Shown piece after piece: positions 973 through 4,021 of a stretch of DNA of 64,000 nt. The notes below the pieces were generated by a model. It searched no databases. It was not told the origin of the DNA and saw only the letters and a program-made list of their open reading frames with translations. The DNA lies in contig CAKKNE010000001.1 in assembly GCA_918797485.1 (NCBI GenBank), positions 4,216,001 through 4,280,000 on the forward strand, read 5' to 3'. The position numbers were made by a program, and so were the translations under genes. Positions within the stretch are counted from its first letter, which is position 1, and the number at the start of each line of letters is the position of its first letter. This DNA is from Pelagomonas calceolata (taxonomy: Eukaryota > Sar > Pelagophyceae > Pelagomonadales > Pelagomonadaceae).

Positions 973-1820
973 ATGCGGCGCACTGGCATCATCCTCGCGA
1001 CAGCATTGGGCGCCTGCAATGCGTTGACGGCTTACCAGCGGTTGACAGGCGCGACGGTGCTCTCGGTCGCGGACCGGCGGCCGGTCGAGCTGACGTCGAC
1101 GTGGCAAGGTAACGAGCGCGTCGTCGTCGAGTTCCTGCGACACTTCGGGTGAGTGTTCTGCTGGGAGCGTGCCGTGCAGTTAAGGCGCGACGCGCTCCCA
1201 GCACTCGAGAAGAATAACATCAAGCTGGCTGTGGTAGGAATCGGTTCCCTCGACTCCGGCGAGACGTTCGCATCTCGCACGGAGTTCCCGAAGTCTATGC
1301 TCTACGTCGACGATTCTGACGAGTCCGAGGCGTATCGCGCCGCGGGGACTCGGAACACGAAGCGGAAGCCTGACGGGAAAGCTGACTTCGAGGGCATCGG
1401 CTCGATGTGGTCGCAAGCCACGAACGACGCGCTCAAGGAGCGCGGTAAGAAGGACCTCGACGCCATCACCGGCTCGCTCTTCAAGCCCGGCATGTGTCAG
1501 TGTGTTTACGCCATCGCCGCGACTCACAGACACGCAAACCGCAGGCATCTATACGCCACTCATGCCGAAAGGCTCGACGATGACTCGATCCATGGAGAAG
1601 ACGATGGTCCAGGGCGGCTCGTTCGTCTTCGAGGGCGACACCGTTTGCGCCAGTGTCCTTCCATGAATCCCCACCGGCACGCCGTCGCCGCGGTCGCGTC
1701 GCGTCGATGGCGTGGAGCGAGTCGCGTGCTACCGCGCAGGTCCTCTTCGAGCACTACGACGAGTCCTCGGGCGCGCACGCCGGGATCGACGACATTCTCA
1801 AGGCGGCCGGCGCCGCGTAG
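973..1820 (+). CDS. SelU: Selenoprotein U (PRXL2/FAM213-type thioredoxin-like protein), UGA-decoded, three exons
   Basis: The SelU/PRXL2 family are thioredoxin-fold oxidoreductases of the AhpC/TSA superfamily with a CxxC or UxxC redox site. From ATG 973 the frame reads into a hydrophobic leader, then VVVEFLRHFG, TGA (1150-1152), VFCWERA, giving U-x-x-C exactly where the family has CxxC. Downstream conserved stretches are KLAVVGIGSLDSGE, YRAAGTRN and ITGSLFKPG. Exon 1 ends at 1489 (GC donor) or 1495 (GT donor); exon 2 is 1545-1642 (YTPLMPKGST, MVQGGSFVFEGDT); exon 3 is 1740-1820 (VLFEHYDESSGAHAG, stop TAG). Both introns keep frame and end in CAG. A SECIS hairpin follows. A signal peptide is possible. 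The exact first donor is unsure; the selenoprotein call is strong because site and SECIS agree. Confidence 0.87.
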
Positions 1821-1830
1821 TCATCGCGTG

Positions 1831-1885
1831 CGAGGTACATGACGCGGCCCCACGCAATCGCCGTGTGGCCGCCGAAACCCCCTCG
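1831..1885 (+). promoter_or_regulatory. SECIS element of the selenoprotein U gene
   Basis: The SECIS directs selenocysteine insertion at UGA through SBP2/eEFSec. It begins 11 nt after the TAG. Helix I is CGAGG (1831-1835) with CCTCG (1881-1885). The 5' quartet side is ATGA (1839-1842) and the 3' side GA lies in CGAA (1873-1876). Helix II is GCGGCC/GGCCGC, a C-U mismatch, and CACG/CGTG, about 11 bp. The apical loop CAATCGC carries the expected AA. All hallmarks of a eukaryotic SECIS are present with normal spacing. Confidence 0.88.
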
Positions 1886-1910
1886 TGCGTGGACTAACAA
1901 CAACATGTGA

Positions 1911-2219
1911 TTATTTCCCGTCCTCCTCGCGCAGCTTTCGCGACGACGCGCGCATATCCACCAACTTCGCCTTCTGGTCGTCGGACATCGTCCCGAGGAT
2001 CTCCGCGTCCAAGTCCGCGCCGAGGTCGTCGGCCGGCGCCGTCTCCAGCTGCTGCAGGTACTTCTCCCATTCTCCCCTAAAACGCTCCAGGACCTCCGGT
2101 TTCGTGACGTCGCGCATCTCCGCGAACTCCTTGCGCACGTACTGGTCTCCGAGCGAACGCATGTTCGGCGGCAGCTTTGTCCGGTGCGCGCGGAGGATCT
2201 GGCGGAGGAGCTGCCGCAT
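1911..2219 (-). CDS. SDHAF3: Succinate dehydrogenase assembly factor 3 (ACN9, LYR family)
   Basis: A 102-residue protein matching the Complex1_LYR/ACN9 family, mitochondrial chaperones that help mature the iron-sulfur subunit of succinate dehydrogenase. Seen: an N-terminal helix LLRQILRAHRTKLPP in the place of the LYR motif (here LLR), then the family core MRSLGDQYVRKEF and a C-terminal helix containing EWEKYLQQLE. The length fits. The ATG at 2217-2219 is the first in frame; a stop lies a few codons upstream, so a short upstream exon is possible but not required. The gene converges on selenoprotein U, with about 90 bp between stop codons that also hold the SECIS. Confidence 0.85.
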   Translation of the reverse strand: MRQLLRQILRAHRTKLPPNMRSLGDQYVRKEFAEMRDVTKPEVLERFRGEWEKYLQQLETAPADDLGADLDAEILGTMSDDQKAKLVDMRASSRKLREEDGK

Positions 2220-2611
2220 GCTCTCCCGGCAGAGGTGATGCTCTCCCTGCTAAACGGCCGCTGGAGCGCACGTCGCCGTGGACGCTGCAACCGACAGCGA
2301 TGGTAAGAGTGTCTAGACGTCTTTTTTACTGCAAATGAACTGCAGCTCGAACGCGGCGTCCTGCACGCCGGCACAAAAAAGCTGCTGCCCATGGGTACGG
2401 GGTCGCGCTGGCGAGTAGGCAGAATCCGGCTGCTCCTGCGGCTGAGGCGTCTCGACACGGGTCGCACGCGCTGCCTTGAGGCGTGCAGGCCTCTGCTCTC
2501 ATCAACATTTCAGCCTCGGAGCCTCGTGCTTTTTGCTCAGGTCCTCTTATGTGGTTCGGTAATCGCTGACCCGATGAAGTTGGTAATGGTTTGGCAGCAG
2601 CGCTACGACTC
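2220..2611. other. Divergent intergenic region, SDHAF3 / KH protein
   Basis: About 390 bp between two divergent start codons. No ORF with coding character, RNA gene or CTAG element was seen. It presumably holds both promoters. Confidence 0.5.
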
Positions 2612-4021
2612 ATGAGTTCGTCCCTTGCCAAGCCGGCGGCCTCAGGCTCTCCCCCGCTCTCAGATTCAAAGCTGGAGAACGTGTCCAGATCCAGCCCTTC
2701 GGGCGCCGAGGAGAAAAAGTCCACGACGCCTCCGCCCGCGCAATCGGGCCCACCAGGGCTGGGCGCCCCGTCGACTCCGCTGGACGTCCAAGAAAGAAGG
2801 AGTTCCCCTCCCGCCCTGGCGCCGGCGCCGGCCACTCATTTGGACCCGCCCCCAGACCAAGCCAGCGCGAGCCGCGAGCCCTCCGAGGCCGACACCGTCG
2901 ACGGCGACGCCGAGGACCCCGTCCAGCAGCCGCCGCTGAGTCCCTACGGCTACGCGGCGCCGCCGCGGCACGTCCGGCCATACGCGCGGGAGACGCCCCC
3001 CCCGTCGCCGAGCGACGCGCGGGAGACGGTGCGGTGCCCCCAGGCCCTCGTCGGGAGGCTCATCGGCAAGGGCGGCGACACGATCAAGGACCTACAACGG
3101 AGGTCCGGCGCCCGCATCCAGATCGACCAGAACTATCCGGAGGGCCAGCCTCGATTAGTCACGGTCGAGGGCGCGGCCCAGTGCGTCCGGGCGGGCGTCG
3201 AGCTCGTGAGATCATTGATAGGGAATTCGCCGGCCGTCGGCAACGGCGCGCCGGGTCGACTGGCCACGTTCGAGTGCCCCAAGGGCCTCGTCGGCCGCGT
3301 CATCGGCAAGGGCGGCGAGACGATCAACGAATTACAACGGAGATCAGGCGCGCGTATCCAGATCGAGCAGCGCGTCGCCGAGGGCGAACCCTGCGTCGTC
3401 GAGGTCCAGGGCGACGATAGAGCGGTGGAGGAAGCAAGACGGCTCGTCCACGAGGTCATGGGCGGCAAGCGCCTCGACCCGCCCTACGTGGCGTACGCCT
3501 ACGCGGCCATGGCCCAGCAGGGCTACGGCTTCCCGCCGCAGCCGAACGTCGGCCTCGCGTCGTACGGCCAGGTGCGGCGCGCGCACGCCGGGAGCTTCTC
3601 GTCCGCATCGGACACGCCGCCGGGAAGTCCCATCCCGGGCTACGCCGTGCCGCACTACCCGTACCCCTACTACCCGCCCTACGGCTTCCCGCCGGCGCAG
3701 TACGGGCCGCCGCCGCCCGGAAGCCCGATCCCGGGCTCGCCCGTGGCCCGGGGCTGGACGCAGCACGTCGACGCGAACACGGGGCGGCCCTACTGGCACC
3801 ACCCGCAGCTGGGCGCGTCGTGGTCGCCGCCGCCGGCCGGGCCGCCCCCGTCGGCGGGGCCGCGGCCACCAATGCCAATTCCCGGCTCGCCGCCTCCACA
3901 AACAAATGGCGACGACGGCGACGACGCCGCCGCGCCGCCCGCGCCCGCGCCGAACCCCACGGCGTGGCCGCACTCGGCCTGGGCGTCCGGCGCTGGTGGC
4001 GCTGACGGCGACAACCCCTGA
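2612..4021 (+). CDS. RNA-binding protein with two KH domains and a WW-like domain
   Basis: Starts at ATG 2612 (the open frame extends upstream only to a TTG). Residues 1-135 are Pro/Ala/Ser-rich. KH1 (about residues 139-205) and KH2 (about 219-285) each carry the nucleic-acid-binding GxxG loop as GKGG, in contexts VGRLIGKGGDTI and VGRVIGKGGETI. The order resembles FUBP/KSRP or PCBP-type single-strand RNA/DNA-binding proteins. After a Tyr/Pro/Gly-rich stretch a WW-like module (about residues 377-408) reads GWTQHVDANTGRPYWHHP...W..P. The tail is proline-rich. KH plus WW would couple RNA binding to proline-rich partners. Role in mRNA metabolism is inferred from domains. Confidence 0.85.
   Translation: MSSSLAKPAASGSPPLSDSKLENVSRSSPSGAEEKKSTTPPPAQSGPPGLGAPSTPLDVQERRSSPPALAPAPATHLDPPPDQASASREPSEADTVDGDAEDPVQQPPLSPYGYAAPPRHVRPYARETPPPSPSDARETVRCPQALVGRLIGKGGDTIKDLQRRSGARIQIDQNYPEGQPRLVTVEGAAQCVRAGVELVRSLIGNSPAVGNGAPGRLATFECPKGLVGRVIGKGGETINELQRRSGARIQIEQRVAEGEPCVVEVQGDDRAVEEARRLVHEVMGGKRLDPPYVAYAYAAMAQQGYGFPPQPNVGLASYGQVRRAHAGSFSSASDTPPGSPIPGYAVPHYPYPYYPPYGFPPAQYGPPPPGSPIPGSPVARGWTQHVDANTGRPYWHHPQLGASWSPPPAGPPPSAGPRPPMPIPGSPPPQTNGDDGDDAAAPPAPAPNPTAWPHSAWASGAGGADGDNP

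Follow-up and report, generated by a model that had tools for sequence, protein, structure and literature searches.

The question raised by this locus of Pelagomonas calceolata was how a UGA codon lying inside a conserved reading frame is used: as selenocysteine (Sec), as a stop or another residue, as part of an intron, or as a disabling mutation. The locus lies in a window of 64,000 nucleotides (C1:4216001-4280000), the whole stretch of DNA analysed, and the genome examined comprised 32,445,274 bases in 8 contigs. The assembly of strain RCC100 has, according to the accessible text of its report, a nuclear part of 32.4 Mb in six contigs, together with plastid and mitochondrion, and a GC content of 63.6% (PMC9481584). 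An earlier note on this DNA had proposed a selenoprotein U (SelU) in an alga, and this was supported by the alignment of the UGA with Cys, a SECIS element and genes of the Sec machinery in the genome. Judged from the DNA, the UGA at 1150-1152 is almost certainly read as selenocysteine, and the locus would encode a redox protein that contains selenium and belongs to a known family.

Reading frame and exon structure

The frame opened by the ATG at 973 read GGG TGA GTG TTC TGC at 1147-1161 (G-U-V-F-C), which confirmed that an in-frame UGA lies in a UxxC motif, here within the stretch FLRHFG-U-VFCWERA of a PRXL2/SelU gene. The piece 5' of the TGA had 59 residues ending in VVVEFLRHFG, of which FLRHFG resembled the FLRSFG/ARTFG of homologs, and the UxxC motif directly followed this FLRxFG strand (FLRHFG-U-VFC). 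After the TGA the same frame continued with VFCWERAVQLRRDALPALE and then with the AhpC-TSA_2 domain (PF13911), which scored 35.8 bits in the unspliced frame and 53.8 bits in the spliced protein with C put for Sec (cut-off 27), so that SelU/PRXL2-conserved sequence was present on both sides of the UGA, as the earlier note had stated.

The frame was interrupted at about 1489 and about 1642. From the sequence, these breaks are best explained as two introns, both 3' of the motif (Table 1), which were placed there because P0002, P0011 and similar relatives read across both sites (FKPG/IYTPLMPKG and GD[DA]/VLFEHYDE, with the slash at the break); relatives of this type could be either spliced transcripts or intronless genes. 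The end of exon 1 was set at 1489 because relatives read FKPGIYTP, while the alternative end at 1495 would give two extra residues. For the same reason a first model of intron 1 (GT at 1496, 233 aa) was dropped for GC-AG at 1490 (231 aa), although the junction is ambiguous because a direct repeat, GGCAT, occurs on both flanks. The spliced protein had 231 residues with Sec at position 60.

P0020 contained a related in-frame stretch of 54 nt where intron 1 lies, and other relatives were without intron 1. This intron may have been gained recently and may vary within the population. P0034 read on into intron 2. Intron 2 was also considered as a repeated introner and rejected, with one other partial match only, not in an obvious intron. 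This match, to a 48-base part of the intron at 85% identity, lay on another chromosome (L036, C5:3730979-3731033, minus strand).

Table 1. Features of the gene (positions in the window) and SelU- or Prx-type genes of the genome (positions in contigs).
Feature	Position	Strand	Details
Exon 1	973..1489	+	ATG 973, signal-peptide-like N-terminus (by eye), VVVEFLRHF strand, UxxC, start of Trx-like domain
In-frame UGA, putative Sec60	1150..1152	+	frame, Cys alignment, split column of relatives
Redox motif Sec-Val-Phe-Cys (UxxC)	1150..1161	+	frame, Cys alignment
Intron 1 (predicted)	1490..1544	+	55 nt, GC-AG; GT-AG alternative 1496-1544
Exon 2	1545..1642	+	IYTPLMPKG..GGSFVFEGDT
Intron 2 (predicted)	1643..1739	+	97 nt, GT-AG
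Exon 3 and true stop	1740..1820	+	TAG 1818-1820
SECIS	1825..1891	+	helix I 1825-1835/1881-1891 (11 pairs); helix II 1844-1872; apical AA 1856-1857
SECIS internal loops	1836-1843, 1873-1880	+	8 nt each; ATGA 1839-1842; GA 1874-1875
L001	C4:4030884-4031246	-	SelU-type, RRPG-U-HIC
L002	C4:5216427-5216708	-	SelU-type, RRPG-U-PLC
L003	C6:3073933-3074307	+	SelU-type, RSFG-U-PFC
L004	this gene		SelU
L007	C5:4772094-4772300	-	Prx-type, TGG-U-T

SECIS element and selenocysteine machinery

A eukaryotic SECIS element, absent from the earlier note, started 4 bases past the true stop, in the 3' UTR, with helix I, UGA/GA core, helix II (one C-U mismatch) and apical AA. The fold of 1822-1895 had an energy of -37.1 kcal/mol (z -3.89), and 1 of 200 shuffles was equally stable. 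Filtering of both strands of the window for TGAC..CGA stem-loops at or below -17 kcal/mol gave three sites, the SECIS among them. A stricter first stem-loop filter, in which unpaired AA or CC was required, passed the window SECIS (-17.4 kcal/mol) together with the sites downstream of L018, L019, L021 and L024, and rejected those downstream of L003, L020 and L025; over both strands of the window it gave 22 matches, six at or below -14 and one at or below -18.

Covariance model R1 was built from L003, L018, L019 and L025 with the window SECIS left out, and in the window it placed the SECIS first of 33 matches (25.9 bits, rough E 0.001; the next 17.6). R1 is narrow and noisy, with off-target matches elsewhere of up to 19.3 bits: it failed to recover L001, L002, L007 and the downstream site of L020, and on L024 an off-target site (19.3 bits) exceeded the true one (17.5). 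Two other alignments, A1 (six rows) and A2 (four rows), were discarded, since their helix register was interrupted by gaps or one of the rows was out of alignment. Rfam SECIS_1 (RF00031) gave no match at gathering score in the window, at or near the gene, and nothing at E<=10 among 132 of the 249 first-look candidates of the genome that were scored, despite the other UGA genes; this model seems to be insensitive here.

With a looser scan, a TGA..GA stem-loop was found downstream of 11/11 UGA-bearing genes inspected, this gene included (four SelU, one Prx, four of 5 GSHPx-family matches and two of 3 Rdx-family matches), a tally that is not a blind test because the best local candidates were picked. 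P0100 was translated through the SECIS in another frame as CEVHDAAPRNRRVAAETP, the same 18 residues as in the window, so the SECIS DNA appears largely conserved in a comparison at the protein level, where synonymous sites are invisible and the source is possibly a close strain.

The gene of a Complex1_LYR protein (1911-2249, minus strand) had its convergent end 19 bases from the SECIS, and the protein encoded at 2570-4021 on the plus strand contained two KH domains and, below cut-off, a weak WW-like stretch.

Genes of the Sec machinery were found in the genome, namely two tRNA-Sec genes (anticodon TCA, 62.5 bits each), SepSecS (E 1.6e-111), SelD (282.8 bits) and eEFSec. For the last, a 457-aa piece of L028 matched the selenocysteine-specific elongation factor 5izk with E 4.9e-123; TIGR00475 gave no separation from EF-Tu, while the PDB comparison separated them. 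Together with a SECIS in the right place, this machinery gives independent support for the Sec reading. The tRNA-Sec gene was duplicated along with tRNA-Trp, in a cluster Trp-Sec-Val-Trp-Sec (L009/L010, C5:5024950-5025614).

PF13911 had nine matches in the genome, and a UGA was present in the motif in five of the eight that were retrieved. In addition, four GSHPx-family and two Rdx-family genes (L018-L021, L024 and L025) carried an in-frame UGA and downstream SECIS-like stem-loops, at none of which Rfam SECIS_1 reported a match; by reading, the Rdx-family genes would be SelW- and SelT-type.

The UGA column in relatives and competing readings

Relatives were taken from a database of conceptual ORFs, where a UGA read as a stop would split a protein in two. 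With the 59-residue N-terminal piece as query, 27/27 homologs stopped at its last residue, in a search whose listing was confined to proteins of about 32-103 residues and therefore could not show read-through forms; their ends were FLRHFG in 25, with FLQHFG and FLRPFG in one each. The whole-protein query (233-aa form) gave 99 homologs, 39 of which began at codon 61 (1153-1155, GTG here), directly after the UGA, and another 39 at codon 68, the next GTG here, a start at GTG being by itself no proof of a preceding stop. The earlier expectation that gene callers would end the gene at 1152 or start a false one at 1153 was thus borne out in these pieces, and the split column (27/27 N-terminal, 39/99 others) argues for conservation of the in-frame UGA. 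The codon-61 starters were 54.7 to 93.6% identical to the query, and FCWER was kept in 36/39 (exceptions P0047 FCWEY, P0051 FCWEL and P0057 FYWER). Codons at the Sec column were seen in the paralogs L001-L003 only, and all were TGA.

In an alignment with PRXL2/SelU homologs the UGA column fell on the first Cys of CxxC in P0121, P0126 and PDB 9us9. The motif read FGCPFCWEL in P0121 and also in P0126, whose source calls it seleno protein U of Monoraphidium minutum, and LRRFGCVVC of human prostamide/PGF synthase (9us9) was aligned to LRHFGUVFC. The column also aligned with the UGA of the paralog L003 in the same genome. In a predicted model of P0044 (pLDDT 84.6, 42 sequences) the Sec column was residue 97, between a strand (86-94) and a helix (98-117), and the closest solved folds to the model were human PGFS, including the C44S/C47S mutant.

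The UGA column was read through in 3/99 whole-protein homologs, with Ser in P0038, Trp in P0044 and P0049, and Cys in none. The two Trp residues may be UGA translated under code 4 by the gene caller, or true UGG. The Trp residues would favour a UGA decoded otherwise (near-cognate insertion of Trp or Cys, or plain readthrough) or used mostly as a stop with the full-length protein as a minor product, and so would the usually incomplete decoding of UGA by Sec; however, with a SECIS in the right place, tRNA-Sec and eEFSec, this reading is very improbable.

A short alternative intron at 1149-1184 (36 nt, in frame) would remove both the UGA and the Cys and leave an ordinary protein without the motif. 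It is the in-frame form of the splice, from 1149 to about 1182, raised in the earlier note. A GTGAGT at 1149 and an AG at 1183-1184 could be joined in frame, and the motif region is missing from two annotated Aureococcus proteins, P0084 and P0097. Nevertheless an intron of 36 nt would be very short, the stretch removed is conserved at the protein level with FCWER down to 55% identity, and the product would lose its active site and leave the SECIS without purpose. The Aureococcus models read rather as an annotation forced around the UGA, probably by a false intron, and splicing of this kind is scarcely credible for the present gene. A pseudogene, in which the UGA and the two frame breaks within a 0.85-kb gene would be disabling mutations, can practically be dismissed, since 27/27 N-terminal relatives and 39/99 homologs share the split column down to 55% identity, possible GC-AG and GT-AG introns, absent from relatives such as P0002, lie at the breaks, and a SECIS follows the gene.

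Some doubt attaches to a wider reading, in which the FLRHFGUVFCWER clade would be a PRXL2 subfamily, bound to Sec and lacking a Cys form, that belongs to pelagophytes and to stramenopile algae related to them. Loss of Sec would then lead to Trp or Ser, with the second Cys or another residue taking over, and automated gene finding would split the gene, or leave it without the active site, in an alga that is abundant in the ocean. This reading is offered tentatively and is rather unlikely as it stands, the Sec column being visible in three relatives only.

Proposed function and comparison with known systems

The reading frame, the conserved split column, the Cys alignment, the SECIS and the machinery genes make it highly probable that a selenoprotein U gene (PRXL2, Trx-like fold) occupies the locus, with three exons, a SECIS after the TAG and a UGA decoded as Sec60. 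Against it stand the empty result of Rfam SECIS_1, the narrow and noisy R1, and Ser or Trp instead of Cys in the three homologs that show the column. Its three-exon mRNA would carry the SECIS just past the stop, and the SECIS would recruit eEFSec with Sec-tRNA(UCA), by which Sec would actually be inserted at 1150-1152. Sec60 and Cys63 would be paired as UxxC where the first helix of the Trx fold begins, and would most likely reduce a peroxide or disulfide substrate; the selenolate would attack, and Cys63 would resolve the selenenylsulfide. The N-terminus looked like a signal peptide by eye, giving a hint of a location reached perhaps by the plastid route.

With at least four SelU-type genes, this open-ocean picoalga is indicated to use selenium for redox proteins, and standard gene finding to split such genes or drop their active site. 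Where the Rfam model finds nothing, a new one could be started from the SECIS set found here, so that the full selenoproteome of the genome could be listed.

The SELENOU family comprises SelU1-3, including the PRXL2A and prostamide/PGF synthase types, and occurs in algae, fish, birds and invertebrates. The available part of PMC3473315 gives fish, birds and Chlamydomonas as the organisms in which SelU was described, and distinguishes three subfamilies, of which SelU3 is the prostamide/PGF synthase type. As far as the accessible text of PMC7539508 goes, the Sec form of SELENOU belongs to the algal selenoproteins with the widest distribution, being present in over half of 36 genomes, and Aureococcus carries 82 selenoprotein genes; its Sel U was overexpressed late in virus infection, according to the accessible text of PMC5917014. 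A literature search for Pelagomonas calceolata and selenoprotein together found no paper with both terms. SelU is already known in algae and the principle is established, so the present gene adds a member.

Among related proteins, Aureococcus anophagefferens P0084 and P0097 (prostaglandin-F synthase by source name) were homologous in the N-terminus and the core, with 50% and 40% identity over the matched part, in models that lack the whole motif region. The paralog L003 had AFLRSFG-UGA-PFCQELL and likewise a SECIS-like stem-loop after its stop; it could be read without an intron and was 31% identical to this gene. Human PRXL2B (PDB 9us9 and 9usa) was the sole PDB sequence match at E<=0.1 (E 0.00043) and the best fold match of the P0044 model at about 20% identity; it has Cys where the algal gene has Sec, and the likeness consists of best sequence and fold matches only, which give no support to prostanoid activity in the alga. 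With SelU the gene shares the PRXL2/AhpC-TSA_2 domain, a UxxC with Sec first and a eukaryotic SECIS, while it differs by the signature FLRHFGUVFCWER, by its two predicted introns and by Ser or Trp in the three relatives that show the column.
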